Shown one piece after another: positions 30,469 to 49,374 of a stretch of DNA of 64,000 nt; the stretch's first letter is position 1; each line of letters begins with the position of its first letter. Location of the stretch: positions 124,001-188,000 of the forward strand of contig NZ_JWIC01000006.1 in NCBI RefSeq assembly GCF_000814765.1. The letters are read 5' to 3'. The notes beneath the pieces were generated by a model, which was not told where the DNA came from, searched no databases, and worked only from the letters and a program-made list of their open reading frames with translations. The position numbers were made by a program, and so were the translations under genes. This DNA comes from Pseudoalteromonas luteoviolacea (GTDB lineage Bacteria; Pseudomonadota; Gammaproteobacteria; Enterobacterales; Alteromonadaceae).

Positions 30469-30475
30469 ATAGGTG

Positions 30476-30515: not shown

Positions 30516-30517
30516 GT

Positions 30518-31622: not shown

Positions 31623-31859
31623 CCCTCATTTTGTCAATATATATAAATTAATATTCATGTATTTTATATTACATATGTTCTGAATGTATCCATAATTTCC
31701 TCCTATATTTCAATTTGGCACTAAACTTGATGCTCTATGCTGTTAGCAGGTTTTGCTAGCAGTATCTCAGGTTACCTCGTTATTAAGCAGGTAAATGCGA
31801 GCTTATCAACAGAATGAATCTAACTAAAATTGTGCAAAATGCACCAAAAGGGGGCAATA

Positions 31860-33197
31860 ATGAACTTCTATGAAGTTAATTTCGATGGACTTGTCGGGCC
31901 ATCACATAATTACGCAGGCCTGTCATATGGAAATGTCGCTTCAAAAGCCAATGCAAAAAAATTCTCTAATCCTAAACAGGCGGCATTGCAAGGACTCGAC
32001 AAAATGTATGCTTTAGCACAACTGGGTTTACATCAAGGGGTGTTGGCACCAAATGCTCGCCCAGATTTAAAAACGCTGCGTGCATTGGGGTTTAGTGGTT
32101 CTGATGGTGAAGTCATTGCTAAAGCTGCAAAAGTAGAACCTCAATTACTTAAAGCATGTTATTCAGCGTCGTCGATGTGGACTGCAAATGCGGCAACGGT
32201 TACACCAAGCTGCGATGCTCAGGATAAAAAGGTCCACTTTACACCCGCAAATTTGAACAATAAATTACACCGCGCCATTGAGGTAGAGACAACTTCACGC
32301 ATTTTACAACAAGTTTTTAAAGATGAAGGATATTTCGTTCATCATCAACCGTTGCCACAGCACCCTCTTTTTGGTGATGAAGGGGCGGCAAACCATACGC
32401 GTTTGGCAGACTCATATAATCACTCCGGTTTAGCTCTGTTTGTCTATGGACAAGATAACCAAAGCGACATCAGACCATCTAAATTTCCAGCTAGACAAAC
32501 GCGTCAGGCAAGTGAAGCAATAGCTCGTAGTCATATGATAAAACCCGAAAACTGCTTGTTTATTCAGCAAAATCCGGATGTGATAGATGCAGGGGTATTT
32601 CATAATGATGTGATAGCGATAGGGAATGAGAATGTCTTTTTATTTCATGAACAGGCGTTTTATGATCAACAAACTTCGGTTAAAAAAATTCGAGAAGCTT
32701 ATAAGGGCAGTCGGCCCCTGCACTTAATCGAAGTATCTAGTAATGATGTCAGTGTCGAGCAGGCGGTGCAAAGTTATATTTTTAATAGTCAACTGGTGAG
32801 TTTGCCGAGCGGAGGAATGGCGCTGATCGCTCCAAGCGAATGTCAAAAAATTAATGAAGTTGAAACGTATTTGAGTGCGCTCAAGCAGGCCAGTAACCCA
32901 GTTAATGATGTTATTTATCTTGACGTTAAGCAAAGTATGCAAAATGGAGGTGGACCCGCTTGTTTACGGTTACGTGTGGTTTTATCTGAGCTTGAACTCA
33001 AAGCCGCGAATCAAGCTTGTTTGTTGGATGAGCAACTTTATTTAAGGTTATCTGCGTGGATAAACAAGCATTATCGCGACCAGTTGAGTGAGTACGATTT
33101 AGCAGATCATACGTTATTGTTAGAGAGTTACTCGGCCTTAGATGAACTAACACAGATCTTACAACTTGGATCCGTGTATGACTTTCAAAGAGGCTAG
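31860..33197 (+). CDS. astB: N-succinylarginine dihydrolase
   Basis: This 445-residue AstB is the second enzyme of the arginine succinyltransferase pathway, giving succinylornithine, CO2 and ammonia. Family marks are the N-terminal EVNFDGLVGPSHNYAGLSYGN, the WTANAATVTPS segment, GDEGAANHTRL with catalytic Glu/His region, and QNGGGPACLRLRVVL with the catalytic Cys. I start at ATG 31860 (MNFYEVNFDG), with AAGGGGGC upstream. The frame opens at 31830. The other ast genes are not adjacent, which is unusual compared with the E. coli operon. Confidence 0.94.
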   Translation: MNFYEVNFDGLVGPSHNYAGLSYGNVASKANAKKFSNPKQAALQGLDKMYALAQLGLHQGVLAPNARPDLKTLRALGFSGSDGEVIAKAAKVEPQLLKACYSASSMWTANAATVTPSCDAQDKKVHFTPANLNNKLHRAIEVETTSRILQQVFKDEGYFVHHQPLPQHPLFGDEGAANHTRLADSYNHSGLALFVYGQDNQSDIRPSKFPARQTRQASEAIARSHMIKPENCLFIQQNPDVIDAGVFHNDVIAIGNENVFLFHEQAFYDQQTSVKKIREAYKGSRPLHLIEVSSNDVSVEQAVQSYIFNSQLVSLPSGGMALIAPSECQKINEVETYLSALKQASNPVNDVIYLDVKQSMQNGGGPACLRLRVVLSELELKAANQACLLDEQLYLRLSAWINKHYRDQLSEYDLADHTLLLESYSALDELTQILQLGSVYDFQRG

Positions 33198-33647
33198 AAA
33201 TCCAGTGAACCTCCTTGTTGCATAAAGGGGGTCTGCCATTCAAGTGAGGGCTACTTATTGTGGGTGGCCTAAAAAGTATCGAGTGAATTTGGCCGATTTC
33301 AAGCTTATACGGCCTCTGTTCCCCATGTTTAGTCTCTTTAATAGCGCCTTTAAAATCTAATATCGGTCATTTATCACCTTGCTGGCATTTGGGCATTCTC
33401 ATCTCGCGACCTTGAGATTTATATTCTTTGCCTTGCCCAATAGTTGTCTAAATTGCACTGTTTTAAATCAATTGAAAATGTACCCAAAATCAAAAGTGAA
33501 TTTTTAACATCGTTGATTATACTTTGCTTATCTCTATCTAGGCATGTTTAGTGTTCTAGTTGCTAGCGGGTCTTGAATTAGGATTAAGCGGTCTTGCTTG
33601 AAGTAGGTAGTGATGAACATACGATAACCAATGATAGGTGATTAGCT
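33198..33647. other. 450-bp region upstream of the surface/cyclase operon
   Basis: This longest gene-free stretch lies between astB and the six-gene operon, with no ORF of note. A possible weak promoter is GTGAAT (33496-33501) with TATACT (33518-33523) at 16-bp spacing. This would give a leader of about 120 nt before the ATG at 33648. I see no sigma54 site. The length fits a regulated promoter region. Confidence 0.4.
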
Positions 33648-34991
33648 ATGTCACTAGTACTTCGATGCGCACAGTACGTATTTATAACCCTTGCCAGCTT
33701 GGTTAGCTCAATATGCTTGGCACTGGACAGTTCATCTCAATCTGATGAGAGCTTGAAAAAAATTCTCAACGAAATTAATGCTCACTTAATTCAAAAAAAC
33801 TACCGGTCAGCATATCAAAAAGCGGAAGCGGAAATTGATGAGTGGGCTGGCGAGCCGAATTTTGATTTTCTTTATGCGCAAGCCGCGTTAGAGCACGCTA
33901 AATATGATGAAGCTATTTTCGCGCTGGAACGAGTGCTAGTTAGCTGGCCTGAGCACATTCCCAGTCATTATTTGCTGGGACTAACGTATGCGAAACAAAA
34001 AAACTATAGTCAAGCCAGTGGCGTTTTTTCAAATTTGTTAAATGCGCAGTTAAGCCCGGCAATGCGTGAGCGGATAAGTCGGGCGTTAGACGCGGTTGAG
34101 CGAAATACGCAAAAGCTTGAACAGTCATTTAGCCACGCAATCTCGCTTGCACTGGGCCATGACTCCAATGTGAATAGCGGTGCACTGGATGACAGAATAG
34201 TCATAGGTGGGTTGCCTCTCACACTAGGTCAGAGCAGTTTGAAAACATCAGACAACTTCATGCGGTTTAAATATCGCTTTCGGGGTAGTTGGCAGCAAAC
34301 ACAATATCAAGGCTGGAAACTGGACGTTAACTTCTCCGATCAACGCCATAAAGACGCCGACCAGTACGATAGATACCAAGGGTCAATCAGGTTTGGCTAT
34401 GAGCATAAAAAAGAGAGTTTAACGTTGTCAACTGGTGGCCAGTTTGGAGTTTTAACGCTCGACGATAATACCTACCAACAAGATATTGGCTTGTATGGAT
34501 CTGTTCAATACAACATAACTCCCCAATATTTCACTGCGTTAAGCAGTTTTGTTTTTTCTCAAAACAATGTTCAAGACCGGAATCTCGATAGTCGTATTTA
34601 CACCATTCAAGGCTCCGCAGGATATTCTTCTGCATTATGGCTGCTGAGAATGGATATGGGTTACACCTGGCAGCCTGCAAGGTATGAAGAGGGTGAACAT
34701 TACGGTCGGGACTATAACTTTATCTCGGGTTCGGTTAGCCATAAAACCGGTGAAAAGGGGTTGCTGAGCTTTAAAGCGCAATACAGGGATATTGAGCATC
34801 GTGCAGATCATCCTCTTTTCTTATCGACAAGAAATGAAGAGCTCGTGATCTTGAATTTAAATTGGCGATACAAATGGAGCCAAGCGTTGAGTATTGATTT
34901 ATCAGCTTCTTATTATGACAAACATAGCTCAATTACCTTATATAGCTACGATAGAACAGAATGGTTCACGGGAGTCCGTTATGAATTCTAA
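33648..34991 (+). CDS. TPR plus outer-membrane beta-barrel protein, Slam/DUF560-like (candidate type XI secretion translocon)
   Basis: This 447-residue protein has a signal peptide ending SICLALD. A helical TPR-like region follows (about 30-160, with LYAQAALEHAKYDEAIFALERVL and YLLGLTYAKQKNYSQASGVF repeats). A C-terminal region of about 280 residues forms alternating beta strands with aromatic ends and finishes in Phe (YSYDRTEWFTGVRYEF). The barrel opens with ALGHDSNVNSG. N-terminal TPR plus a barrel of about 14 strands, and this start and finish, are what DUF560/Slam proteins show. They move lipoproteins or soluble cargo across the outer membrane. It is the first gene of the operon and overlaps the FecR gene by 11 bp. 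The family call is by architecture only. Confidence 0.6.
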   Translation: MSLVLRCAQYVFITLASLVSSICLALDSSSQSDESLKKILNEINAHLIQKNYRSAYQKAEAEIDEWAGEPNFDFLYAQAALEHAKYDEAIFALERVLVSWPEHIPSHYLLGLTYAKQKNYSQASGVFSNLLNAQLSPAMRERISRALDAVERNTQKLEQSFSHAISLALGHDSNVNSGALDDRIVIGGLPLTLGQSSLKTSDNFMRFKYRFRGSWQQTQYQGWKLDVNFSDQRHKDADQYDRYQGSIRFGYEHKKESLTLSTGGQFGVLTLDDNTYQQDIGLYGSVQYNITPQYFTALSSFVFSQNNVQDRNLDSRIYTIQGSAGYSSALWLLRMDMGYTWQPARYEEGEHYGRDYNFISGSVSHKTGEKGLLSFKAQYRDIEHRADHPLFLSTRNEELVILNLNWRYKWSQALSIDLSASYYDKHSSITLYSYDRTEWFTGVRYEF

Positions 34992-36189
34992 TTTTAAGTT
35001 GATTGCTACCTTTACCCTTGTATCAACTGCAATGGCTTTAGCGTTGACTTTGCCATTTTGCGCTGTTGCTGACCAAGCCGGTAAAACTATCATGTCTCGT
35101 GGTAACGTTATTGCCACTGATACCAGCAATGAATCGAACAGAGCCTTGAAAAGGCGTAGCCCGATATATGATGTCGATGTTGTCAATACGGGCGAATCAA
35201 GTCAGGCCCAACTTAGAATGCAGGACGGCGCACTGATTGCGCTCAAAGCTCAGACTCAATTGAAGATTGAAGAATATAATCTGGGTGGTGCTGAAGGAGG
35301 CTCTGTGGTGATGGAGCTTATTTCGGGTGGGCTGCGTACTATCACAGGTGAAATAAAAGGTGATAAGAGCAACTATAAACTGAAAACACCCGTTGGCAGT
35401 ATCGGGATCCGTGGCACACATTATGAAGTCGAGTGGAAAAATAACGAACTATTCTTGGCTGTTTGGGATGGGACCATTGAAGTGGATATGAGTAATGCGA
35501 CAGGAGCTGAAGGGCCCGTATTACTGGGTAAAGGCGGAGATTTTTCTTTTGCAAAAGTGAGTGAAAGTGGCGCCGTTACATCATTACTCAAACCACCTTC
35601 AGAACTGTCTTCTCTGTCTTCCTCAGTCAGTGAATCTGCACAGTCAAATGACACAGAAGAGCAAGGTACTACGGTTGCGAGTGCGGAATTAGACCCAACT
35701 GAACAGCCCACACCGATATTAGAAGGGAGTTTTTCTCAAGTGGCCAATGATGTATCACAAAATGAGTACATCAATGAGCAAGAGTTAGATAGTTTGGGAA
35801 CTGAAGATATTAGCGAGTTGATTTCCGAGCGAACGGGAAGTACCGCTTACACAGTACTTGAAAGCATAGACGCCAGCTCAAGTCTTGGCGCTGTCACGGC
35901 CATTAATATGCAAATGACGGTTAATTTTGACAGAGGAACTGTTGAGCAAGGTGCTTTGTCCTTTCAAGATTCTGGTGGTGAGTGGTTTGCAGCATTTAAT
36001 GGCTTGATCACGACCGAAGGCATGGATCTCGGTGTTAATTTTGCCTCTCATGGTAATAACCTAGCTGATGGGACCATTCAAAGTCGATTTATAGATGGAC
36101 TTGATAAGCTAAGTGGTAATTTTAATTTAAGAGAAATAGACAATCCGAGTGTTTCTGCTCGAGGCGACTTTCTCTTAGGTCAGCCTTAG
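34981..36189 (+). CDS. exported FecR-domain protein with beta-rich, TbpB-like C-terminal domain
   Basis: This 402-residue protein has a signal peptide (MNSNFKLIATF..., cleaved near FCAVA-DQ). The FecR domain spans about 40-185, with LKTPVGSIGIRGTHYEV and LAVWDGTIEV as core. An acidic Ser/Glu linker (about 190-290) follows. A C-terminal domain of about 110 residues contains short strands of the kind NFDRGTVEQGALSF, WFAAFNGLITTEG and GTIQSRFIDGL, resembling the TbpB-type eight-strand barrel. FecR domains usually sense at a TonB/sigma system, but neither gene type is adjacent. There is no lipobox. I chose ATG 34981; the frame opens at 34894 inside the upstream gene. It could be structural or cargo of the upstream barrel. 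Confidence 0.7.
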   Translation: MNSNFKLIATFTLVSTAMALALTLPFCAVADQAGKTIMSRGNVIATDTSNESNRALKRRSPIYDVDVVNTGESSQAQLRMQDGALIALKAQTQLKIEEYNLGGAEGGSVVMELISGGLRTITGEIKGDKSNYKLKTPVGSIGIRGTHYEVEWKNNELFLAVWDGTIEVDMSNATGAEGPVLLGKGGDFSFAKVSESGAVTSLLKPPSELSSLSSSVSESAQSNDTEEQGTTVASAELDPTEQPTPILEGSFSQVANDVSQNEYINEQELDSLGTEDISELISERTGSTAYTVLESIDASSSLGAVTAINMQMTVNFDRGTVEQGALSFQDSGGEWFAAFNGLITTEGMDLGVNFASHGNNLADGTIQSRFIDGLDKLSGNFNLREIDNPSVSARGDFLLGQP

Positions 36190-36196
36190 GAGAAAC

Positions 36197-39100
36197 ATGA
36201 TGAACCTAAGCGTAATATTACGTAGTCTTATCGCACTCACATTCGCAGTCGCGATGGCAGGTTGTGGTGGTGGAGGCGATAGCGAACCACTTCAACAAGC
36301 TGGTAATACCTCTGGGGCAGTTGAACTGCCCAACAACTCAAGTTCAAACACGTCTTCGAATGCACCTGTCGTCGTAGATTTTTCTTATCAGCCCAAATTT
36401 AGGCATGCACGATTAGGGGCCACGCAAGTAGTAGATGAGTTGATGATTAACGGGACAGGCGATCTGACTCACCCACAAGGAGAGGTTACTGAGCGTGGTA
36501 ATATCACAGTTGCCGTTGATAATATTGAAGATCCTGACGGTATTGGCCGTGTTTTGTTGGGCTTTGATAATGCTGAACAGGCGATAGAATTATGTAGTGA
36601 AAACTGTGTCTCTCCGTTCAAATTTACTCAAACTGGTGTCAATCCATATGATTTCGGTCAGTCTAGAGGCACCGTCAACCTGCAGGTATGGGTTGAGGAT
36701 CTGAATGGTAACCTGAGTGTGGTGGCCATAAAGCAGTTTAATTGGCAGCCGCAAAGTGTGGTGGTGGAGCCTGCGCAAAGACAAGAAGATGGCTCTGTCG
36801 AAATTAATTGGCAGCCGCTTGAAAGTGCACTGAGATATAATGTTTATCTCTCAGAGGAACCGATTAACAGCCGATCTGCAATCAATGCGATCCCTGCGAA
36901 TAATCGATTTGTTGCATTATCAAATACTTCTCAGTCATTTTCAGGTTTAGAGCCTAAAAAGCATTACTATGTTTTAGTTACGGGTATTGATGGCAGTGGT
37001 GAAAGTGCATTCAGCGAATCAATATTACTCCCTGCGACCGAACAAACTCCACCGATTGCTAATAATGACGACTTTACTGGTTTACAGTTTGAATCGATTT
37101 CGGGCAATGTTTTAACTAATGACTTAGACTTGGGCTTTGGACCCATCGAGGTTGTGAGCAACCTGGTCACGGCACCATCCAGTGGTACAGTTAATATTTC
37201 TGCAAATGGTAACTTTACATACACCCCGAGTGATAGCTTTTTTGGTACTGACAGCTTTGTATATCAAATTCAAAACTCACAAGGTGCGACAGCTCAGGCG
37301 ACTGTGACTTTACAAATAGAAGCTGTAAGAATCTCAATATTGACACTTAACAACACTTACAGGGTTGAGAAAAACACAGAGTTAGCTGTCTCTGGCAGAG
37401 GGGTACTAGTCAATGATGTGCATTTATTAAATCAATCGCTGCAAATTGATACCCAGCCAGAGCGAAATGTAACCAATGGTGTTTTGACGCTTAACGCTGA
37501 AGGCAGCTTCACGTATGTACCGAATAGTGAATTTATAGGTGAAGACTCATTTGTATACCGGGTACGCAGTAACGAGGGTGAGGTGCAACTGGCTGAAGTC
37601 TTTATCTCTGTGCAAGATGACGTTACTAGTATTCCGCCTGTTGCGGTTAATGATGCGTTTGAGACGAGTGAAGACTTCATTTTATCTGTCAGCTCGCCTG
37701 GCATTTTAGAAAATGATACTGATGAAACGCTTAGTTCTGTGTCAATTAGTATAGAGACGACGACAATCAGCGGTTCGTTGGAGTTGACTGAAGAGGGAGG
37801 TTTTAGATATGTCCCTAATGCTGACTTTGCAGGTCAAGATTACTTCATATATACCATAACCAATGAAGCTGGTTTGAGTGCAAGTGCATTTGGTGTTATC
37901 AACGTTGTGAGTGTGAATGACCCACCCATGGCCATGGATGATTCTATTGAAGTTGCACAGGGTCAGCCAACAGCAATAAATGTCACAAGCAATGACAGTG
38001 ATAAAGATGGTGAACTCGTTTTATCGACATTAGAAATCGTGATGCAGCCCATGCATGGCAGCGTCACTTTTGATTCAAGTACAGGGCAATTTATATATCA
38101 AAGCGATGCCAATTACCGTGGCTCTGATTATTTTGTTTACACGGTAGATGATAATGAAGGTGCAAAATCAAACGAGGCGTTTGTTCAAATCTTTGTTACA
38201 GGGGAGAATACCGCACCAATGGCGGTGAATGATACTGCCAGCACTTCCCAAGATGTCCCTGTAGATATTGATGTACTCGCGAATGATTCAGACTCAGATG
38301 GCACATTGGTGTTTGATTCGATTGAAATCACAACGAACCCCTCCAATGGGCAAGTGACTTTAAATGCGAGCGACAGTGTGTTGGTTTATACCCCAAGTTC
38401 AGGGTTTTCTGGTACAGATTCATTCCAATACCGTGTACAAGACAATGAAAACCAGTTTTCTAATATTGCCTCTGTTACTGTGACAGTGCAAGCTGTCAAT
38501 CAGGCACCTGTCGCAAACGCAGATAGTGCACAGGTTGAAATTGGTACGTCAGTGACTGTTGCAGTGCTAGAAAATGATACCGACTCAGATGGTACAATTG
38601 ATGCGAGTACGGTAGAGGTTATTGCAAATCCAAGCAAAGGTACGGTTAATATTGGGTCTGCCGGAGAGATTTTGTACATGCACACAGGTACGGCGGTTGG
38701 CACAGATAGTTTCTCATACCGCGTTAGAGATAATGTTGGTGCACTCTCTAATATCGCACTTGTTTCTATAAATATTGTTGAACCAGATACCACGCCAATT
38801 GCCAATGCAGATGCAGCGTCACTTGATAAGAACACGTCTGTAATGATAGATGTGCTCACTAATGATGACGCCAAAGGGCAAATATTAAATTTATCAAGTA
38901 TTGAGATAATTAGCGCTGTCGCCCATGGTTCAACTTTTATTGACTCTTCTACAGGCTACATTAGTTACATTCCTGTGACTAACTTTGTTGGCACTGATGG
39001 CTTTACGTATCAAGTTATGAATAACTTAGGTGAGACATCGAATGTGGCAACTGTGACCATCACAGTGTTACCAAAAAATTATCCACCGACGGTATCACCC

Positions 39101-41914
39101 AATTCAGCAAACATTGATACCGACGTGTCTAATGGCGACCTTGTATTGCAGGTAAGCGCATCTGATCCGGATGGTGATAACATCAGCTATACATTGAGTG
39201 GCACAAACGCCAGTCTATTTTCAATCGCAAGTAATGGCCAAGTGACGGTTGCTAATGCGAGCCAAATCAGTAGCAATGGTGAAGCGGTTTATACGCTTAC
39301 TGTTGAAGTATGTGACGACATCTCTCCTGCTTTGTGTGCGTCGGCACAAATAACGATTAATGTGAGTGTTGCGCAAACAACGTATGTTGCAAACAAACTC
39401 ACTACGTTTGGCTCAGATGGTGAAAAGGTGGTGAGACTTCGCGCGTCAATGGAGTCTCATGAAGCCGGCCAATCTTTATTGCTCAGTGATGGTACTTTGC
39501 TGGTTGTTGGTGGAGTAGGGTATTGGAATGAAACCCTAGTTAGAAATATCCATCGTGCATCGATAACCAAAGTGCTGCCTGATGGACATCCTGATACAAG
39601 CTTTGCTAGCCAGGGGGTATTTACCAGTTATTTTGGGATTGAAGTTGCTGATCAGCCACAAAATATAGTCGCGAAGGCTGTTGCTGTAGACAGCAGTAAT
39701 CGCATTTACGTTGCAGGATATGCTGATTTTGGTGCAACAGAAGCACAAGAATTATTAATATTTAGGCTGACAGCTTCGGGTGTGCACGATACATCTTATG
39801 GTGCAGGCTCAGGTTATACAAAATTGCCGCTCACAACCGGTGGACGAGTAACGCCGATATCTATTTCGGTAGATGATGCTCAGATTGTCACTGTGCTAAG
39901 TAATGTTGCGGTGGGTGAAAATACCAGTATCAAGCTTACTCGAGTTGATACCACTGGGAACATAACATCGTCACTGGATATTGCGCCTAGCTCTTCTCAA
40001 TACGCTGACGGTATGATCGATTTGGGCAGTAACTTACTGGTCTTTGGCGAAGTTATGTCAGAGGCGGGAAATAAAGACCTGTTATTTGTAAGAGTGATAG
40101 AGGAAACCTTAGCAATTGACACCAGCTTCCAGTCAGCTGGATTCTTACAAATTGATATTGATAGCGCGGCTTTTGACAATCAAGTACATGATGTTATTCA
40201 GTTGAGTGATGGCAAGCTGCTGCTAACCGGAGACTCTTACCTGTCTGGTGGTAGTGATAAATCGGTATTTGTAATGCGATTGAACAGCGACGGCTCAATG
40301 GATACCTCATTCAATTCTACCGGTTATATTTTATATGAGCTCAATCAGCTACCCGCATCCGGCATTGATGGACAGGACTTTTCAGTATGGAATGCTTATG
40401 GCTTTGGCTTGTATGCGGATGATACACATTACTATGTAGGGATTGGCCGAGGGCAATTCAGCACGTCTTCTAACGCAGTACAGCTATTTAGAACAGACTT
40501 AAACGGTGTTATAGATACAAGTTGGTTACCTGAGTCTGGTGGGCCTACAGCCTATAGACAATTTTTGTTGGCCCCAGTTGATTGGCATCGTACTAGTCAG
40601 GGACTCTTTGTTTATGGTTATCAGTATCGCTCTGTAGGAAATAACTTTTTCTATTCTCAATGGATGGGTGAGTTTACGCTCAGCGCAGCTTTAAACGGCA
40701 ACTTTGGTTCAGCAGGCGAAGTCAATTTAGATACAGGGGATGCAAACGAGTCCTTTACTGAGGGGCTAAGCGTTCAGTCTTCATCGAGTCAATTGCTTCT
40801 GACAGGGAATGCATCGACTTGGCAAAACAGCGAAGTGCCTTATGTCTACAAATTAGATAATACAGGTAAGGGAGTGGCTAGTTTTGGTAATCTTGGCAAA
40901 ATGCAGCTCGCGCTGAGTACTTCAGTCACGACCACCACTGCTGTAGAAGCGTTGGCAGGCAACATCTTACTGGCAGGCAATCAGACGGTTGATCAAGCGG
41001 TTATTGTGAACGTCAAAAATGATGGCCAGCAAGACTTTGACTTCATACCTGGCAGTAGTGCAACTGCTATTGGTATTTCCGCCTCTGCTTATGGAGGCAC
41101 GGGCAGTACAATTGAAGTAACTAAGTTGTATACATTACCGACCACAGATTTTATCGCATTTGCGAAAATTAATGACGGCTGCATTGACCAGAGCCATGCA
41201 TTTTTCTATTCGAGTGTTGGTTTGATGTTAGGGCATTTCCAATACCCTGTTCCCAGTGAAGTTTCTTGCGGTACTACGGCTAGAGGGATTGATTTTATAC
41301 ACCCTGTGTCAGCGACTGAATTAGTGGGTATTGGCACTGATGAACAAGTATTTAGTGAACCTCGTGTGATTTTAGCTAAATCTAATTTAACAGGTGATCT
41401 AGATACATCGTTTGGAACTGCAGGAGTATCGGCTTTAGACATTGGACTGGTATCTGGCGAAACGATGGACTTAAAGGGCTCGTTTGTTGATTCGCAAGGG
41501 AAGTTTGTCATATTCGGTACGGGTGGCAGCAAAAACTTTGTGTTGAGAGTGAATACTGATGGCTCTATTGACAGTTCATTTGGTTCAGGCGGTGTATTGA
41601 TATTTGAACAGTTAGGTACAACTGCAGTTGTGGTTAAACAAGGTTGGGTGCAAAGCACTGGGGAGTTAGTCTTATTCCTTCAAGAATCAAGCGGTCAAGG
41701 CATTTACATCGCTCGGGTTAAACTGGCGGATGATGCTGGCACCTTCGATACGACGTTTAACTCTGTTGGTTATCAAAACTTCTCAGTCTCCATGACAGGA
41801 CAGCTTTCCTCTGCTATTAGTTTGAATAATGGTGATAGTTTTGTACTTGTTTTACAACAGGATGAGCCGAAGGTCATCGTGCTGCAAGCAGGCATTATTG
41901 AGATAGCTGACTAG
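36197..41914 (+). CDS. giant tandem-repeat outer-membrane lipoprotein (95-residue cadherin-like repeats, delta-60 repeats)
   Basis: This 1905-residue protein has a lipobox AMAGC (Cys23) followed by GGGGDSE. Neutral Gly at +2 suggests outer-membrane sorting. Domains in order: an N-terminal beta domain (about 55-185), a fibronectin III-like domain (about 188-281), and about seven tandem-95 repeats (about 285-960). Each repeat carries a [A/P]VAxxD start and a FxGxDSFxYxVxDN end. A cadherin-like unit follows (SASDPDGDNISYTLSGTN), then a C-terminal half with about nine delta-60-type repeats (DTSFGTAGV, SIDSSFGSGGVL, TSFNSTGYI). Asp-rich loops suggest calcium. Probable role: adhesin or surface matrix protein. 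It is 7 bp after the FecR gene. Confidence 0.82.
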   Translation: MMNLSVILRSLIALTFAVAMAGCGGGGDSEPLQQAGNTSGAVELPNNSSSNTSSNAPVVVDFSYQPKFRHARLGATQVVDELMINGTGDLTHPQGEVTERGNITVAVDNIEDPDGIGRVLLGFDNAEQAIELCSENCVSPFKFTQTGVNPYDFGQSRGTVNLQVWVEDLNGNLSVVAIKQFNWQPQSVVVEPAQRQEDGSVEINWQPLESALRYNVYLSEEPINSRSAINAIPANNRFVALSNTSQSFSGLEPKKHYYVLVTGIDGSGESAFSESILLPATEQTPPIANNDDFTGLQFESISGNVLTNDLDLGFGPIEVVSNLVTAPSSGTVNISANGNFTYTPSDSFFGTDSFVYQIQNSQGATAQATVTLQIEAVRISILTLNNTYRVEKNTELAVSGRGVLVNDVHLLNQSLQIDTQPERNVTNGVLTLNAEGSFTYVPNSEFIGEDSFVYRVRSNEGEVQLAEVFISVQDDVTSIPPVAVNDAFETSEDFILSVSSPGILENDTDETLSSVSISIETTTISGSLELTEEGGFRYVPNADFAGQDYFIYTITNEAGLSASAFGVINVVSVNDPPMAMDDSIEVAQGQPTAINVTSNDSDKDGELVLSTLEIVMQPMHGSVTFDSSTGQFIYQSDANYRGSDYFVYTVDDNEGAKSNEAFVQIFVTGENTAPMAVNDTASTSQDVPVDIDVLANDSDSDGTLVFDSIEITTNPSNGQVTLNASDSVLVYTPSSGFSGTDSFQYRVQDNENQFSNIASVTVTVQAVNQAPVANADSAQVEIGTSVTVAVLENDTDSDGTIDASTVEVIANPSKGTVNIGSAGEILYMHTGTAVGTDSFSYRVRDNVGALSNIALVSINIVEPDTTPIANADAASLDKNTSVMIDVLTNDDAKGQILNLSSIEIISAVAHGSTFIDSSTGYISYIPVTNFVGTDGFTYQVMNNLGETSNVATVTITVLPKNYPPTVSPNSANIDTDVSNGDLVLQVSASDPDGDNISYTLSGTNASLFSIASNGQVTVANASQISSNGEAVYTLTVEVCDDISPALCASAQITINVSVAQTTYVANKLTTFGSDGEKVVRLRASMESHEAGQSLLLSDGTLLVVGGVGYWNETLVRNIHRASITKVLPDGHPDTSFASQGVFTSYFGIEVADQPQNIVAKAVAVDSSNRIYVAGYADFGATEAQELLIFRLTASGVHDTSYGAGSGYTKLPLTTGGRVTPISISVDDAQIVTVLSNVAVGENTSIKLTRVDTTGNITSSLDIAPSSSQYADGMIDLGSNLLVFGEVMSEAGNKDLLFVRVIEETLAIDTSFQSAGFLQIDIDSAAFDNQVHDVIQLSDGKLLLTGDSYLSGGSDKSVFVMRLNSDGSMDTSFNSTGYILYELNQLPASGIDGQDFSVWNAYGFGLYADDTHYYVGIGRGQFSTSSNAVQLFRTDLNGVIDTSWLPESGGPTAYRQFLLAPVDWHRTSQGLFVYGYQYRSVGNNFFYSQWMGEFTLSAALNGNFGSAGEVNLDTGDANESFTEGLSVQSSSSQLLLTGNASTWQNSEVPYVYKLDNTGKGVASFGNLGKMQLALSTSVTTTTAVEALAGNILLAGNQTVDQAVIVNVKNDGQQDFDFIPGSSATAIGISASAYGGTGSTIEVTKLYTLPTTDFIAFAKINDGCIDQSHAFFYSSVGLMLGHFQYPVPSEVSCGTTARGIDFIHPVSATELVGIGTDEQVFSEPRVILAKSNLTGDLDTSFGTAGVSALDIGLVSGETMDLKGSFVDSQGKFVIFGTGGSKNFVLRVNTDGSIDSSFGSGGVLIFEQLGTTAVVVKQGWVQSTGELVLFLQESSGQGIYIARVKLADDAGTFDTTFNSVGYQNFSVSMTGQLSSAISLNNGDSFVLVLQQDEPKVIVLQAGIIEIAD

Positions 41915-41929
41915 CGAGGTTGATATAGA

Positions 41930-42748
41930 ATGCAGTTAAAATTCTACGGTGTGAGGGGCTCTATCCCCACACCGGGGCCAGACACAGTCGAATATGGTGG
42001 TAATACAGTGTGTGTATCACTGCAAAGTCAGAACGGTACACACATCATCTTAGATTCTGGCACTGGTATAAGGCTCCTTGGTGATGAGCTCATAAAAGAT
42101 ACTCGAGAAATTTATATTTTACTCAGCCATAATCATTGGGACCATATTCAAGGCTTTCCATTCTTTGTGCCTGCATATATGCCAAATAGGAAGATAACAA
42201 TTGTGCCCGGTGTAACTGAATCACAGGCGCCTGATGCGATTTTGAGGCAAATGGATGGTAGCTACTTTCCAGTGCAATATGCTGATTTACCCTCAATTGT
42301 GAAAGTTTTACCACAACATAATGATACCTGGCACTATCAAGATATTTATATTGAACGTATGGCGATGAACCACCCAGGTGGAGGGAGTGCTTATCGCTTA
42401 ACCGTTGATGGAGTCAAAATTGTTTATGCCATTGATAATGAATTGTACCCACCGAATGACCCTGTTACGAGCTTTGATGAGTGGGTGGAGTTTGTAGCAG
42501 AAGTTGACTATTTAATCCACGATGGGCAGTTTATTCCCAGTGATTACCCATTAAAAATGGGATGGGGGCATTCTCAAATAAAAGATGCTTTGGCTTTAGC
42601 GGTACAAGGGAAAGTAAAAAACTTAGTGATTATTAGCCATGATCCGGCTAGAACTGATAAAGACTTGAACCAAATTGCAATAGACATTGGTCAAAAAGGG
42701 TTCAATTTCAATACTATAATTGCGCACGAAGGTTTAGTGATTAAATGA
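41930..42748 (+). CDS. MBL-fold metallohydrolase next to cyclase (PhnP/RNase Z-like)
   Basis: This 272-residue cytosolic metallo-beta-lactamase-fold enzyme has the opening GVRGSIPTPGPDTVEYGGNTVCV, the zinc motif LLSHNHWDHIQGFP, AMNHPGGGSAYRL (third metal His), VIYAIDNELY-like (metal Asp) and VIISHDPARTD. Family members include cyclic-nucleotide or cyclic-phosphate phosphodiesterases. It is 15 bp after the giant lipoprotein and overlaps the next gene (ATGA), whose product makes a cyclic nucleotide. Hydrolysis of that nucleotide is my inference. Confidence 0.78.
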   Translation: MQLKFYGVRGSIPTPGPDTVEYGGNTVCVSLQSQNGTHIILDSGTGIRLLGDELIKDTREIYILLSHNHWDHIQGFPFFVPAYMPNRKITIVPGVTESQAPDAILRQMDGSYFPVQYADLPSIVKVLPQHNDTWHYQDIYIERMAMNHPGGGSAYRLTVDGVKIVYAIDNELYPPNDPVTSFDEWVEFVAEVDYLIHDGQFIPSDYPLKMGWGHSQIKDALALAVQGKVKNLVIISHDPARTDKDLNQIAIDIGQKGFNFNTIIAHEGLVIK

Positions 42749-44970
42749 ACCTTGCCAAACACTTCAAGCTTTACCGGCTTCAGTGGGCGACAGGTAGTGT
42801 TATTACTTTTTTATTTATTTTACTTCATATGCTCGCGTTATCGCCTGCAGCACCTTATGGACAAGTGTTGAAACGATTTGAGGGGCTAGCTTATGATGTG
42901 AGACTCAAAGAATCACTGCCTTGGCAACAAAGGTCATTTTTACCCATTGTAATCGTTGATATTGATGAGCAAAGCTTGATTGAAATAGGTCGCTTCCCTT
43001 GGAGCCGCCACGTAATGGGGAAATTGCAAGACCAACTCGTTGCTGCAGGCGTATCTGTTGTTGCATATGATGTCTTATTTTCTGAGCCTGAACTAAATCC
43101 AGCTATGCAAGTGGCTTCACACTTGGGTGCAACAGATCCACAGACTAACGAAATTCTACGTTCGATTGCCCCAAATATTGATGCCGATATCGCTTTTTCT
43201 AAAACACTGGATGCAACAGATACGGTTTTGGGTATGTTGTTTGAGCATCAACAGGATATTTTGGTCGGCAAGCTTCCTGACCCTATTTTCGCCAGTGAGA
43301 TTTCCCCTGATAATTTACCTATTCCAGATTTTTCTGGCCATGTCGCGAACGTAAAAGTGTTGCAGGAAAATAGCCCAGGAACTGGTTTTATAAATAGTGC
43401 ACCGGATGGTGACGGGTTTGTACGATATTCAATGCTAATGATTAAACACGATAAAGAGGCTTACCCTGCGCTGGCTTTAGAAGCGGCTAGGTTGTATACC
43501 TTAGCAGATACCGTAGAGATAGTCGCCAAGCCTTTTGGTGATGGTCATAGCGTACAGGGAATAAAATTAGGCACTACGCTTATTCCGACAGATGACTATG
43601 GCCGCGTTGCAATACCTTTTAGAGGCCCTGCCTTTAGTTTCCCTTATATTTCGGCCATTGATGTGATCAATGGCAATATAGATAAAAGCTTGTTTGATCA
43701 GGCCATTGTGTTTGTGGGTACATCCGCGGTTGGTCATGCTGATTTGCGAACCACACCGGTAGGGGTGCAATACCCGGGTGTAGAAGTTCATGCAAATGTA
43801 TTAGAGGGATTAGTGTTTCCTGAGTTGTTGCCTTCTCGCCCTGATTGGATCGATGGCGCGGTCGTTGTCTTACTTGTCATATTGGGACTAGCAATGTCTA
43901 TTGTACTTCCACTGCTGGGGGTTTTGGGTATGACGTTGCTAGCTTTGTTTGTCACATCATGTTTTATCTTTTTTAGTTTTTATGCATGGGTTGTTTGGCG
44001 GCTAGACTTCCCGCAAATCGCGATATTAGGCTTAACCATTTCGCAAACGACAATCTTGGGTAGCCTTGGTTTTGTGCGAGAGCATAAAGAGCGCGTACAA
44101 ATTAAATCTATATTTGACCAATATGTACCGCCTGCACATATTGCTTCGATGTTAGAACAACCTGATCAGGCTTCTATGGAAGGTGAGAAGCGTGTAATGA
44201 CCGTGCTATTTGCTGATATACGAGAGTTTACAAGCATCTCTGAGTCACTTGATGCCGGGAGGTTAAAGGCATATTTAAACCAATACTTTTCTCCCATCAC
44301 AAAAATTATTTTCGAGTACCAAGGCACCATTGATAAATATGTCGGTGATATGGTGATGGCTTTTTGGAATGCCCCGTTGCTTGTTGATGAACATCCAGAG
44401 CTTGCTGTTAAGTGTGCTATGCAAATGCAGCGTCAAGTCGATGATTTGCAAGCGCAGATGATAGAGCAAGGTTTCCCACCCTTTGCTATCGGTATTGGTC
44501 TAAATACTGGAGACATGAATGTGGGGGATATGGGCTCCGAATATCGAAGAGCATACACAGTGCTTGGTGATGCGGTGAATTTAGGATCGCGCCTTGAGGG
44601 ATTAACAAAATTTTATGGGGTGGGGGTACTGGTCAGTGAGATGACTTATGAGCAATGTTCGGATATTGTTTTTCGACCAATTGACAAAGTAAAGGTAAAA
44701 GGGAAAAACCTCGCGGTGACTATTTTTGAGCCTATTGCACTTAAAAATGAGGTAACAGAGGCCCAGCATGAGGAGCTTAAAGCACATAAAATAGCTTGGG
44801 AGTTGTATTTATCGCAATCTTGGCAGGAAGCTTTGCCAGCTTTTACTAAACTAATAGAGTTACAGCCACAAAGAAAAATTTATCAACTTCTTTGTGAAAG
44901 AGTGCGTGAAATGCAATCTCATCCTCCCGGAGAAAACTGGGATGGAAGTTATACGCACAAGTCGAAATAG
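42745..44970 (+). CDS. CHASE2-domain class III adenylate/guanylate cyclase
   Basis: This 741-residue inner-membrane cyclase has an N-terminal helix (about 17-32), a periplasmic CHASE2 sensor (about 35-360), three membrane helices (about 370-445) and a cytosolic class III cyclase domain (about 478-660). Metal-binding Asp are D491 (FADIREFT) and D535 (KYVGDMVM); K531, T605 and N612/R616 (YTVLGDAVNLGSRLEG) are substrate and transition-state residues. The K/T pair fits class IIIb adenylate cyclases. The C-terminal tail is TPR-like. The CHASE2 ligand is unknown. It is coupled to the MBL gene and 17 bp before the HD-GYP gene. Confidence 0.9.
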   Translation: MNLAKHFKLYRLQWATGSVITFLFILLHMLALSPAAPYGQVLKRFEGLAYDVRLKESLPWQQRSFLPIVIVDIDEQSLIEIGRFPWSRHVMGKLQDQLVAAGVSVVAYDVLFSEPELNPAMQVASHLGATDPQTNEILRSIAPNIDADIAFSKTLDATDTVLGMLFEHQQDILVGKLPDPIFASEISPDNLPIPDFSGHVANVKVLQENSPGTGFINSAPDGDGFVRYSMLMIKHDKEAYPALALEAARLYTLADTVEIVAKPFGDGHSVQGIKLGTTLIPTDDYGRVAIPFRGPAFSFPYISAIDVINGNIDKSLFDQAIVFVGTSAVGHADLRTTPVGVQYPGVEVHANVLEGLVFPELLPSRPDWIDGAVVVLLVILGLAMSIVLPLLGVLGMTLLALFVTSCFIFFSFYAWVVWRLDFPQIAILGLTISQTTILGSLGFVREHKERVQIKSIFDQYVPPAHIASMLEQPDQASMEGEKRVMTVLFADIREFTSISESLDAGRLKAYLNQYFSPITKIIFEYQGTIDKYVGDMVMAFWNAPLLVDEHPELAVKCAMQMQRQVDDLQAQMIEQGFPPFAIGIGLNTGDMNVGDMGSEYRRAYTVLGDAVNLGSRLEGLTKFYGVGVLVSEMTYEQCSDIVFRPIDKVKVKGKNLAVTIFEPIALKNEVTEAQHEELKAHKIAWELYLSQSWQEALPAFTKLIELQPQRKIYQLLCERVREMQSHPPGENWDGSYTHKSK

Positions 44971-44987
44971 TATGGGTGTAAAGGGCC

Positions 44988-46640
44988 ATGGATCTGTCAA
45001 TTCGTAGCACAGTAGCTGAAGAAGACATCATTGAGAGCCAAGTTGCATTAAAGCATTTGCTTAAGCTTGCGATTGAGCTTTCATCAGAACATGATACTGA
45101 CAGGCTATTAGAGCATATTTTAGAGTCAGCAATTGCGTTGAGTAATGCTGAAGGCGGTACAATTTATTCGGTCTCAGAAGATGCGCAGCTCAAGTTTGCA
45201 ACGTTGATTAACGAGCCACTTGGGTTACACATGGGAGGGACATCAGGCAAAGAGATACCATTTCCCGCAATCCCCATATATTTAGAAGATGGCTCGCCCA
45301 ACGAAAGTGCTTTAGTAGCGCTCGCCGCAGCAAAAAAAGATGTGATCAGAATTGATGATGTTTATGATTGCACTGATTATGATTTATCTGCTGCCAGAGC
45401 TATGGATAAGAAAACAGGGTATCACACCCAATCTGTGTTAACGGTACCTATGGCGAATCATGAACGGGACTTAAATGGCGTTTTACAGCTGATAAACCCT
45501 CGCTGTAAGGACAAAGTGGTGAGGTTTTCGTCTGATCTCGTTGAGTTGATATGTTCAATGAGCTCATTGGCTGCGGTGGCTTTGACCAATAGACAGCTGA
45601 TTGATGATATGGAAACATTATTTCAAGCGTTTACTAGGTTAATTGCTAAAGCAATCGATGAAAAGTCTCCTTATACAGGAGGGCATTGCCGAAGAGTGCC
45701 AGAGCTAACCATGATGATAGCCAGTGCGGTCCATGAGGCAAAGACAGGGCCAATGGCTGACTTTAAAATGACAGCGGCGGATAGGCATGAGCTTTCTCTT
45801 GCAGGTTGGTTACATGACTGCGGTAAGATTGCCATCCCTGAATATGTGATGGATAAGGCTACTAAACTTCATTCAGTATACGATCGAATTGAATTGGTCA
45901 TTGCTAAAATTGAAATAGCAAAAAGAGACGTAGAACTAGAATACACCAAGCGGATAATGAAAGCTGAGGCTTTGGATCAGCAACAAATCGTCAAGACACT
46001 GAAAATGGAGTTACAGCAGGCTTTGGATAAATTAGAAGATGAGTGTGCATTCTTAGCTCGGACTAATATCGGTGGCGAATTCATGAAAGAAGCTGATCAG
46101 CAGCGGGTTCAGAGCTTGGCTGACAATTACAACGTTGTGATTGATGGCTTAGCGCAACCACTGTTATCTCAAGAAGAAGTCTATAATTTAAGTATTGCAA
46201 GAGGCACACTTACCACAGAAGAGCGGTTGGTGATTAATAAACATATGGATATCACGCTGGAAATGCTTGAGGCGTTACCATTTCCTAAGCACTTACGAAG
46301 AGTCCCTGAATTTGCTGGGGGGCATCATGAAAAAATGGATGGGACTGGGTATCCAAAGGGCCTAACCAGAGAGCAAATGTCTGTACCGGCACGGATCATG
46401 GCGATAGCGGATATATTTGAAGCGTTAACCGCTGCTGATAGGCCATATAAAGATGCGAAGCCGCTCAGTGAATGCTTGTTTATTATGGGTAAGATGAAGT
46501 TGGGTGATCACATTGATCCAGACTTGTTCGATGTGTTTGTCAGCTCAGGTGTGTATTTAGATTATGCAAATCAGTATTTAAAGCCCGAACAAATAGATGA
46601 AATAGACACGGACAAAATCCCCGGATATAACAAGCCATAG
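44988..46640 (+). CDS. GAF domain plus HD-GYP phosphodiesterase
   Basis: This 550-residue cytosolic protein has an N-terminal GAF domain (about 25-200). The HD-GYP half is split by a long coiled-coil insertion. HDCGKIAIPE is at about 276, and HHEKMDGTGYPKGL at about 446. These two motifs are 170 residues apart, against about 60 in standard HD-GYP proteins, so about 105 charged, helical residues are inserted. All metal His/Asp and the GYP signature remain, so c-di-GMP hydrolysis is plausible. It is the last gene of the surface/cyclase operon. Confidence 0.88.
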   Translation: MDLSIRSTVAEEDIIESQVALKHLLKLAIELSSEHDTDRLLEHILESAIALSNAEGGTIYSVSEDAQLKFATLINEPLGLHMGGTSGKEIPFPAIPIYLEDGSPNESALVALAAAKKDVIRIDDVYDCTDYDLSAARAMDKKTGYHTQSVLTVPMANHERDLNGVLQLINPRCKDKVVRFSSDLVELICSMSSLAAVALTNRQLIDDMETLFQAFTRLIAKAIDEKSPYTGGHCRRVPELTMMIASAVHEAKTGPMADFKMTAADRHELSLAGWLHDCGKIAIPEYVMDKATKLHSVYDRIELVIAKIEIAKRDVELEYTKRIMKAEALDQQQIVKTLKMELQQALDKLEDECAFLARTNIGGEFMKEADQQRVQSLADNYNVVIDGLAQPLLSQEEVYNLSIARGTLTTEERLVINKHMDITLEMLEALPFPKHLRRVPEFAGGHHEKMDGTGYPKGLTREQMSVPARIMAIADIFEALTAADRPYKDAKPLSECLFIMGKMKLGDHIDPDLFDVFVSSGVYLDYANQYLKPEQIDEIDTDKIPGYNKP

Positions 46641-46645
46641 GCGAA

Positions 46646-47017
46646 TTAGTTAACGCGCCAAGGCGGGTTTAAACGGTTTTCTCCAGCCCAATAAAGCTTG
46701 ATTTTGTTATTGGATGGGTCAAGGAGTATGGCTTCTTTCCAGAGATACCTTTCCATCGTTGGTAACTGTTCAAATTGAATGCCTTTTGCAATAAGCTGTT
46801 CCACCCATTCATCCAGTTCTTTGTGTTCAAAATATATCACAGCGCCATTTTTAAACGCTCCCGTTTCCAGTGATAGAGAAAATGAACTCCCGCCTGTTGG
46901 ACATGCAAAGCGAGCATAATGCGGCGTATCAACAATGAGTTTGAAACCAAGGGCCTGATAAAATTCAACGGCCTTTGGCATATTATTTACTGGTAGTGTG
47001 ACTTGATTTAAGTTCAT
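46646..47017 (-). CDS. VOC/glyoxalase-fold protein
   Basis: This 123-residue protein of the vicinal-oxygen-chelate superfamily has paired beta-alpha-beta-beta-beta modules. The N-terminal LPVNNMPKAVEFYQALGFKLI and the C-terminal YLWKEAILLDPSNNKIKLYW show the fold. Metal-binding His/Glu are not all obvious, so the enzyme could be a resistance-like or non-catalytic member. It is convergent with the HD-GYP gene (6-bp gap) and 81 bp from acpH. Confidence 0.8.
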   Translation of the reverse strand: MNLNQVTLPVNNMPKAVEFYQALGFKLIVDTPHYARFACPTGGSSFSLSLETGAFKNGAVIYFEHKELDEWVEQLIAKGIQFEQLPTMERYLWKEAILLDPSNNKIKLYWAGENRLNPPWRVN

Positions 47018-47098
47018 GATCGTTATCAGATGCTAGGTTGTTGTATAACCATAATTTCAGAAGGTGGTTGATTTGTAAACGATAAAGTCTAACCCGCG

Positions 47099-47695
47099 TT
47101 AAAGTCGGTGTTCGTTCTCTGGGCCATATTGTGCAATATGCTCAATAAGTTCTGGAAAAAAGCACAAAAATGACGCTTCAAGTTGTTCAAGATTGTCAGC
47201 AATTTCAACCTCAATTCCGCTAAATTCGTTTTTAAACCGTACCCTTTTTACAATATTACTAAGTGCCTGCTGAGTGCCAATGAGGGTGCAATATTGCTCA
47301 AACCAGTCATTGGTAATTAGGTTTTTAATCACATGTTGCATAGGTAAGTGCATCATAGGCAGTTGTTGATTGAGAAGCTGGTAACTATGCACTTTAAACT
47401 CATGAAATGAAGTCGGACTAAATTGGGTCCAGTGTTTTATAAGTAGGTGGTCATAGAGAACATCCAGTGCAATACCAGAGAATCGCCGGCGTTTGTGGCT
47501 AAATAGAGATTTAGACTGTTTAACAAGAGGATGAAAATCGGTAAATTTATCGACTAATACATGGTTGTCTAGTGCATTTTTCATACTAGGCGACAGCGTT
47601 GCGGTATCTATTCCGCGTTGGAAGTCACCAAGCAAATTACCGTGATATGATTGAGCAGTTTCCTTTGCGAGAAATAAATGGGCTAGATAATTCAA
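47099..47695 (-). CDS. acpH: acyl carrier protein phosphodiesterase
   Basis: This 198-residue helical hydrolase removes 4'-phosphopantetheine from holo-ACP. MNYLAHLFLAKETAQSYHGNLLGDFQRG carries the conserved His and Asp of the HD-like metal site. FTDFHPLVKQSKSLFSHKRRRFSGIALDVLYDHLL (about 50-85) is the second block with conserved Asp/His. Length is standard (E. coli 193). Monocistronic. Confidence 0.9.
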   Translation of the reverse strand: MNYLAHLFLAKETAQSYHGNLLGDFQRGIDTATLSPSMKNALDNHVLVDKFTDFHPLVKQSKSLFSHKRRRFSGIALDVLYDHLLIKHWTQFSPTSFHEFKVHSYQLLNQQLPMMHLPMQHVIKNLITNDWFEQYCTLIGTQQALSNIVKRVRFKNEFSGIEVEIADNLEQLEASFLCFFPELIEHIAQYGPENEHRL

Positions 47696-47953
47696 ACTTC
47701 ACCTGTAGGTTGCTATTTCATTCTAAATTTTGCTTTGCTGATATTTTATATGAGGCTTTTATAAAAATAAGCAATAAGTATGCGCTGGTAAAACCGCTTT
47801 TAATTTTCCGTTACCGAAGCGCAGTAACCTAGATAAATTTTATATGAATGGCGGTCATTATTTGCTTTGTTCTGCTAATCTTAATGATATGACTCATAGT
47901 TAAAGAAGACCATTGATGCTTGATATACTGAACTTTGATAACGAGGTACAGTT

Positions 47954-48703
47954 ATGATTGCATATGGATTTTTGCCTTTTTCAGCTTACGTTATTTCAGA
48001 CTTTATATTTTTCCATCGTAATCGTTCTATCAGTTTTGATGTGCTTGTCAGGCAAGTTCGATTTACAGGCGTTGAAGCATTAGGGCTGGTGGTACTTATC
48101 GCCATGTTGATCGGTGCGTTAATCATAGTTCAAGGCTACCCATTACTAGCGGCCATTGGGCAGGGAAATTGGATTTACGATATCTTAATTTCGACGATAG
48201 TGCGAGATTTGGGGCCGTTTATTGTTTGCTTTATTGTGTTAGCGCGCTCTGGCACGGCTATCACAACGGAGCTCGGTAACATGGTAGTTAGTAAAGAAAT
48301 TGATGCGCTAATCGCAATGGGAGTGTCACCCATTTCTTATCTCGTTGCACCACGCGTTTTGGGGATGATAGTGTCTTTGGTTTTGCTGATGAGCTACTTT
48401 GTCGCATGTGGTATTTTTGGCGGATACTTAGTCAGCAATGCTTTTCAGTCAATACCAGTCAGTACTTTTTTTGCAAAGCTTGTCAGTGAGTTACACTGGT
48501 TTGATATCGTCATCATGTTGTTAAAAGTCGCATTTTCTGGCCTTTTTATTAGTCTCATTGCAAGTTATCACGGGCTGACAGTCAATCGGGCTATCACTGA
48601 AGTGCCGCAGCGAAATATTAAAGCGGTTGGCAGAGGGCTCATTTCAATTTGTTTGATTCATGTTTCACTCACTTTACTATACGTGATAATAACAGGGCGG
48701 TGA
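47954..48703 (+). CDS. MlaE-family ABC permease
   Basis: This 249-residue inner-membrane permease of the MlaE/Ttg2B family has about five or six helices with the signature IVRDLGPFIVCFIVLARSGTAITTELGNMVVSKEIDALIAMGV (about 75-120). In Mla-type systems it moves phospholipids together with an MCE protein and an ATPase. GAGG lies before the ATG. The ATPase gene begins 2 bp after its stop and the MCE gene after that, so it opens a four-gene operon. Confidence 0.88.
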   Translation: MIAYGFLPFSAYVISDFIFFHRNRSISFDVLVRQVRFTGVEALGLVVLIAMLIGALIIVQGYPLLAAIGQGNWIYDILISTIVRDLGPFIVCFIVLARSGTAITTELGNMVVSKEIDALIAMGVSPISYLVAPRVLGMIVSLVLLMSYFVACGIFGGYLVSNAFQSIPVSTFFAKLVSELHWFDIVIMLLKVAFSGLFISLIASYHGLTVNRAITEVPQRNIKAVGRGLISICLIHVSLTLLYVIITGR

Positions 48704-48705
48704 TA

Positions 48706-49371: not shown

Positions 49372-49374
49372 CTG

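Follow-up and report, generated by a model that had tools for sequence, protein, structure and literature searches.

Introduction

A cluster of four genes, encoding a CHASE2 adenylate cyclase, a phosphodiesterase, a FecR protein and a tetratricopeptide repeat (TPR) protein, has been described in Campylobacterota (PMC9239204), and by description the same kinds of gene are found in the operon analyzed here. This operon lies at 33648-46640 on the plus strand of a 64,000-nucleotide stretch from Pseudoalteromonas luteoviolacea (contig NZ_JWIC01000006.1, positions 124,001 to 188,000; the whole stretch is called the window below). Its six genes encode, in order, an outer-membrane TPR-barrel protein, a secreted FecR protein, a giant repeat lipoprotein, a metallo-beta-lactamase (MBL)-fold hydrolase, a CHASE2 protein with a class III cyclase domain and a GAF/HD-GYP protein. 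The available text on the Campylobacterota cluster mentions no link to a type XI secretion system (T11SS), no giant lipoprotein and no HD-GYP protein (PMC9239204). Sequence comparisons and predicted structures indicate that the first two genes look like a T11SS-like channel and its cargo, opening the operon. Whether all six form a surface-sensing relay built on this T11SS (Slam)-like pair, with the one joint signalling role that we infer for them, we regard as about evenly balanced.

According to the available text, Slam/T11SS outer-membrane proteins consist of a TPR region and a DUF560 barrel, and their cargo proteins carry a C-terminal eight-stranded barrel (PMC8406197); the cargo known so far comprises adhesins, haemophores and metal-binding proteins, again as far as the available text goes (PMC12282271). 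The Pseudoalteromonas pair resembles this arrangement in that a protein with TPR and a 14-strand barrel is encoded beside one ending in an eight-strand barrel of the TbpB/fHbp/hemophilin type. It differs in that the cargo carries a FecR domain, the system is tied to a cyclase and the window proteins score below the Pfam cut-offs.

An experimental precedent for signalling from a barrel to CHASE2 comes from Sinorhizobium meliloti, where genetics places the outer-membrane barrel NsrA upstream of the CHASE2 cyclases CyaK, CyaD1 and CyaD2 and of cyclic AMP (cAMP); NsrA is a far longer protein, and the available text describes no giant lipoprotein or HD-GYP protein (PMC7529298, PMC13001267). The BiofilmReg operon of Burkholderia also sets a FecR protein beside a CHASE2 sensor, but in the available description this sensor is a histidine kinase of unknown signal, accompanied by a LysM-FecR protein, a response regulator and a DUF4136 protein, with no cyclase or barrel (PMC5192318). 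In the mtxA cluster of magnetotactic bacteria a gene for a secreted TPR/Ig-like protein is followed by a CHASE2 cyclase gene, while FecR, a barrel exporter and an adhesin are not named in the available text (PMC4439547).

No word beginning with FecR, CHASE2 or cyclase occurs in two T11SS papers (PMC8406197, PMC12282271), and among the papers listed for FecR together with T11SS terms, FecR surfaced only in one on Lysobacter lysochelin. No account linking FecR or a CHASE2 cyclase to the T11SS was found in the literature searched, most subscription papers lying outside that search. A preliminary description of this locus, made from the sequence alone, had known of no described system with this set. 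This stands for the exact six genes with giant lipoprotein and HD-GYP, which were not found in print in the literature searched, but not for the set as a whole, given the partly available accounts of the CHASE2-phosphodiesterase-FecR-TPR cluster of Campylobacterota (PMC9239204) and of NsrA with CHASE2 (PMC7529298, PMC13001267). The cyclase-phosphodiesterase-FecR-TPR cluster is therefore known, and the T11SS link and the giant lipoprotein and HD-GYP additions are what was not found. Little is known of what most CHASE2 domains respond to, and a cargo-like FecR protein with a T11SS-like channel is a concrete candidate for an upstream pathway. If true, this would give a secretion system a part in signalling and tie surface lipoprotein display to cAMP and cyclic di-GMP (c-di-GMP) within one operon.

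A putative channel and cargo pair

AlphaFold2 models were made for genes 1 and 2. Gene 1 (33648-34991, plus strand, as are all six) encodes 447 residues, modeled with a mean predicted local distance difference test (pLDDT) of 87.8 as N-terminal TPR helices (29-154) followed by a C-terminal barrel of 14 strands (159-446), which is the layout of T11SS/Slam proteins; the Slam barrel itself has 14 strands. Family profiles point the same way in the relatives: among 20 aligned ones, 10 match PF04575 (SlipAM) and 12 match PF24575 (TPR_Slam) at E values up to 1 (best 2.7e-8 and 1.6e-6, respectively), and the PF04575 cut-off is passed by 5 of 18 relatives scanned singly (L047, 34.1; L151, 30.9; L049, 29.4; L081, 27.8; L193, 25.9). 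In a whole-genome search gene 1 was the sole PF04575 match of the source genome, at E 0.4 and aligned over positions 10-279 of 288. Strong PF04575 matches (E < 1e-20) were found in five genomes other than those with gene 1 family matches, one of which has the cyclase at 1e-80.

Several observations weigh against a Slam assignment. The window protein itself remains under the PF04575 cut-off (0.53; 11.3 bits against 22), the PF24575 cut-off was reached by none of the singly scanned proteins, and for some relatives the barrel families DUF2860 and BBP2_2 give equal or higher scores. Among solved structures the fold is matched best by CymA and OmpG, which are 14-strand porins (Z about 20-22), and among the fold matches listed no entry is named Slam. 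Because 11.3 bits falls short of 22, we file gene 1 as Slam-like rather than Slam, a probable divergent relative of the T11SS channel; the "translocon-like barrel" of the preliminary description is borne out to this extent by the model and by the PF04575 matches of the relatives.

The partner, gene 2, was placed at 34981-36189. The listed open reading frame (ORF) begins at a TTG at 34894, and choosing the ATG at 34981 gives an 11-base overlap with gene 1 that is common to many relatives. Its FecR domain (PF04773, 4.7e-13) spans residues 66-167, about 35176-35481, and the model adds a C-terminal eight-strand barrel of the T11SS cargo type at residues 287-400, about 35839-36180, which the preliminary description had not mentioned. 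The model is of mixed quality (pLDDT 69.1, predicted template modeling score 0.47), with a poor linker (211-274) between two domains that are fair to good; across the eight strands (292-400) pLDDT is mostly 82-95. Residues 64-215 match the periplasmic FecR-type domain of PupR (6ovk; Z 14.3, 3.0 A over 136 residues), and residues ~276-402 match NHBA (5o1r; Z 12.9, 2.3 A over 110 residues), followed by fHbp (Z 11.6), TbpB (11.4), hemophilin (10.3) and HphA (10.3). Beneath the FecR-domain rows of the VIA list, all 47 listed rows are of the NHBA, fHbp, TbpB or hemophilin/HphA type, with no lipocalin among them. Foldseek alone was weaker (PupR, 4.1e-6; a TbpB lobe, 5.2e-4; lipocalins at ~1e-2, with nitrobindin also among the weak matches). 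Beyond the window family, 12 of 18 distant FecR C-termini are matched by its barrel profile above the HMMER inclusion threshold. In L145, a FecR protein of 1040 aa, whose neighbors are a barrel and a CHASE2 cyclase, can be aligned to the window family at its PF01298 region (E 3.3e-6).

Against these matches, PF01298 (TbpB_B_D) is absent at E 1 from all 20 window-family FecR proteins, and its cut-off is reached in only 1 of 13 more distant ones (L145, 29.0 versus 26; L183 remains below at 17.7). The barrel profile is below threshold or absent in the other 6 of the 18 distant C-termini, and hhalign gives no more than a weak alignment between the distant C-termini and the window family (probability 38.5 across 47 columns). 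The source genome has a single PF01298 match, below the cut-off and not at gene 2, and no PDB sequence was matched by the FecR alignment at E 1. Since the FecR protein ends in a T11SS-cargo-type barrel and is encoded beside a Slam-like gene, the two still look like channel and cargo.

The same folds leave room for other assignments of gene 1. It might be a channel for a polysaccharide or small molecule (of the BcsC/PelB/PgaA type, or a porin) in a matrix operon, with the FecR barrel a generic lipocalin-like fold; BcsC and the PelBC channel appear high in its Foldseek list together with porins, which also counts against a Slam assignment, and the lipocalin and nitrobindin matches of the FecR model would agree. 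We hold this to be improbable, as none of the six genes encodes a glycosyltransferase or polymer synthase, 14 of the 53 gene 1 family matches in gammaproteobacterial genomes reach the PF04575 cut-off, and the VIA list for the gene 2 barrel is free of lipocalins. A surface receptor similar to NsrA, rather than an exporter, is somewhat less doubtful, though we still lean away from it: barrel loops would bind an outside ligand, FecR would relay to CHASE2 and the lipoprotein would serve as co-receptor. NsrA is required for the response of CHASE2 cyclases to a protein signal in S. meliloti, and reading outer-membrane receptors is the classical task of FecR domains (PMC5498481), both according to the available text. 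On the other side, NsrA is described there as a protein of ~1200 residues with its barrel in 600-1200 (PMC7529298, PMC13001267), against 447 residues for gene 1, a comparison made by description, and the TPR plus 14-strand layout and the neighbor's cargo-type barrel suit export better.

Having a PF04773 domain with the PupR fold, gene 2 was also considered as a standard FecR/PupR anti-sigma factor. This was rejected because no cytoplasmic domain was seen, with only a signal-peptide-like helix (8-22) ahead of the FecR domain. As a separate observation, the cargo family is expanded in L145 (1597-8868), where a single barrel gene and a CHASE2 cyclase are accompanied by giant FecR proteins of 1334 and 1040 aa, arranged in tandem and both with cargo-type barrels.

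Barrel, FecR and cyclase across genomes

Two alignments, one of the cyclase (threshold 1e-80) and one of the barrel (1e-20), were run against 274 gammaproteobacterial genomes. The cyclase was matched in 95 genomes and the barrel in 46 (53 matches), and 44 of the 46 barrel genomes have the cyclase; the two others are 64 and 77 per cent complete. Setting the source genome aside, the cyclase is present in 43/45 barrel genomes versus 94/273 overall (Fisher 2.5e-21). A sample of 398 genomes from the phylum gave 26/31 versus 150/398, or 25/30 versus 149/397 when the source genome was left out (Fisher 1.2e-7). Two points temper this association: the Fisher values treat genomes as independent, though they are related, and 51 of the 95 cyclase genomes in the gammaproteobacterial set have no barrel, from which it follows that the cyclase also works without it.

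At the level of gene neighborhoods, the gene immediately 3' of the barrel encodes a FecR protein in 49 of 55 rows, or 48 of 53 distinct places, in the fetched stretches, so that a candidate cargo gene adjoins the channel gene as in the T11SS. (Among the 53 gammaproteobacterial barrel matches, the window's own and that of G222 are outside the fetched stretches.) The exceptions are L106, in which the barrel is cut at the end of the stretch (FecR is next to it in L105), L152, with FecR directly upstream, L247, where the contig ends, L257, with FecR encoded on the opposite strand, and L267, whose FecR match (2e-5) is under the threshold. The cyclase lies within 6 kb of the barrel in 20/55 rows (18/53 distinct places), a share that is not an unbiased rate because L102-L201 were included on account of a cyclase match and L233-L271 on account of a barrel match. 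Given the 48 of 53 places, the barrel channel and FecR cargo appear to be a near-fixed pair, with the cyclase as a frequent neighbor.

These figures bear on whether the operon is one pathway at all. A surface lipoprotein export set (genes 1-3) and a nucleotide set (genes 4-6) might simply be co-regulated neighbors, and the halves are indeed separable: 35 of the 55 barrel rows have no cyclase within 6 kb in the stretch, and one locus, in Pokkaliibacter (L054), has genes 4-6 alone. We think this very unlikely, since barrel and cyclase co-occur in genomes even where they are unlinked (44/46) and the order of the genes is conserved across several genera.

Conservation of gene order

The spacings between consecutive genes are -11, +7, +15, -4 and +17 bases, in agreement with the earlier account of six co-directional genes that overlap or lie within 17 bp, and its domain assignments also match those of Pfam and NCBIfam (TPR; FecR; Big_9/Cadherin/tandem-95 with a DUF5122 (delta-60) propeller; MBL; CHASE2 and Guanylate_cyc; GAF and HD_5). 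That account had proposed looking for the same six families in order in related genomes. Using the MBL protein as query, we took the best 80 of 181 relatives in genome contigs together with their surroundings; the closest to the source genome (6.06 Mb) are from other P. luteoviolacea strains (L022-L031, 88 to 77 per cent). The cyclase adjoins the MBL gene in 34 of the 80 loci. Of these, 24 have all six genes in order, from several genera (17 Pseudoalteromonas, 5 Rheinheimera, one metagenome-assembled genome and one Alteromonas, a30), and six more (L041, L044, L048, L056, L065 and L100) have the giant, MBL, cyclase and HD-GYP genes, the upstream part being cut by the end of the contig or stretch. 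Three loci of Catenovulum lack giant gene 3, and the last is that of Pokkaliibacter (MBL-cyclase-HD-GYP). Two of the overlaps are found repeatedly among the loci, that of 11 bases between genes 1 and 2 and that of 4 bases between genes 4 and 5.

The other 46 of the 80 relatives have no cyclase beside the MBL gene and sit in another neighborhood, so the MBL family is not bound to the cyclase. This second recurrent neighborhood (e.g., L053, 7300-11978) has genes of ~233, 571 and 376 aa, which on inspection of the sequences are a TrmO-like gene, a prolyl-tRNA synthetase gene and a patatin. A patatin-like phospholipase gene also lies 3' of the HD-GYP gene in L048 (14692-15819, by Pfam) and L049 (14673-15794, by inspection), a gene of like length is found at that place in L056, L065 and L100, and the lone MBL gene of L053 likewise precedes a patatin-like gene.

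Nucleotide enzymes

Gene 5 (42745-44970) encodes the only CHASE2 protein of the source genome, with CHASE2 at residues 30-382 (PF05226, 1.2e-52) and a class III cyclase domain at 484-657 (PF00211, 2.4e-17). The catalytic residues, D491, K531, D535, T605, N612 and R616, which we take to be the metal, base and transition-state residues, are conserved in 17/17 sequences. The closest solved domains are entries named adenylate cyclase or CyaB, and gene 5 is probably an adenylate cyclase. In G152 the intact CHASE2-cyclase gene is accompanied, at a distance of ~3 kb, by a broken copy that contains five stops (C1, 3083399-3084601).

Gene 6 (44988-46640) combines PF13487 (1.5e-42) with a GAF domain (PF01590, 1.4e-8). 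Its HD (276-277) and GYP (454-456) motifs are present in 35/35 sequences, solved relatives of the HD-GYP type match at 1.1e-26 and 1.5e-23, and it is probably a c-di-GMP phosphodiesterase. The closest solved GAF domains are that of an adenylate cyclase (1ykd, 5.4e-8) and that of PDE5; a proven cAMP receptor was considered and set aside, the 1ykd match being no more than a lead.

For gene 4 (41930-42748; PF12706, 5.7e-9) the assignment is less specific. It has the full set of metal residues (HNHWDH, H148, D198 and H237), conserved in 34 or 35 of 35 sequences, and a cAMP phosphodiesterase is our guess. It could not be accepted as a proven one, as it scores 26.8 bits on the cyclic-nucleotide phosphodiesterase model NF041851 (cut-off 400) and higher on RNase Z models (44.7 on one with a cut-off of 292.95); the closest solved relative is a weak RNase Z match alone.

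The giant lipoprotein

Gene 3 (36197-41914) encodes 1905 residues, with a lipobox (MAGC, Cys23) followed by glycines, fn3/Big_9/cadherin-like repeats and a delta-60 repeat propeller region. Glycines after the lipoprotein cysteine are reminiscent of Neisseria surface lipoproteins. A lipobox-like motif is present in 24 of 25 complete gene 3 copies of the operon family (all except L049). The "tandem-repeat" lipoprotein of the earlier account holds for the protein domains, but not for the DNA, in which Tandem Repeats Finder found no arrays across 30000-50000, giant gene included. A further point against the export reading is that Pfam gives no cargo-type barrel match in the giant lipoprotein.

Pairwise block identities among 11 proteins single out residues 1151-1750 (39647-41446), a variable propeller segment of two types, one in the window, L022 and L027-L031 and the other in L023-L026. 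L022 and L023 are 55 per cent identical over this segment, versus 89-91 per cent both at residues 1-1050 and at 1751-1905; in the five remaining genes of the operon they share 92-98 per cent identity. L023 and L025 are 82 per cent identical in the segment and 72-73 per cent at residues 1-1050. That the two types cross lineages looks like the exchange of a recognition head between them. Large Ig-like or repeat proteins also follow the FecR gene in distant loci, namely L192 (954 aa, FG-GAP), L193 (1000 aa, Big_9), L195 (1663 aa, seven Big_9 stretches) and L102 (868 aa, Big_9); the first three begin with a lipobox-like motif and L102 has none.

A possible relay

A conserved set that seems to join a putative export pair to the enzymes of two messengers suggests that the cell might monitor its surface and pass the information inward. 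In such a relay, the gene 1 channel would bind or export the FecR protein via the C-terminal barrel of gene 2, and the FecR domain, by analogy with FecA/FecR signalling, would inform the periplasmic CHASE2 domain of conditions at the outer membrane. CHASE2 would then set the cAMP output of gene 5, the MBL enzyme would trim cAMP or a related nucleotide, and gene 6 may read a cyclic nucleotide with its GAF domain and lower c-di-GMP. The giant lipoprotein would be what is displayed or sensed, an adhesin or receptor at the surface that is monitored for its loading or its ligand, with the variable propeller as its recognition head.

In a more specific version, which we consider unlikely, the substrate of the channel is FecR itself, and retention of FecR in the periplasm or its passage outward would set the CHASE2 cyclase. 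Channel and cargo would together act as a sensor of secretion state: the fate of FecR could depend, for example, on whether the giant lipoprotein occupies or plugs the channel, and the cell would count its surface adhesins through cAMP, after which GAF-HD-GYP would lower c-di-GMP. FlgM is a comparable export-coupled switch; here the switch would be placed at the outer membrane.

The upstream region

CRP-like palindromes are not in excess in the window (28 versus 37.6 expected), and none falls within 33198-33647. A perfect CRP-type palindrome, TGTGATGTGTATCACA, is located at 60655-60670 within an ORF (60091-61095), the count of such sites being not above chance. Promoter-like matches in the upstream region were likewise not in excess (33 versus 38.6 in shuffles), and Rfam gave no matches in 33100-34000. 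An alignment of 10 sequences (the window and 9 of 10 loci of the luteoviolacea group) has nearly all of its invariant columns beginning at 33476, with divergence farther upstream. Because this block of ~170 bases before gene 1 (33476-33647, plus strand) is conserved while the sequence beyond it is not, it fits a single promoter for the operon, and is probably its promoter and leader.

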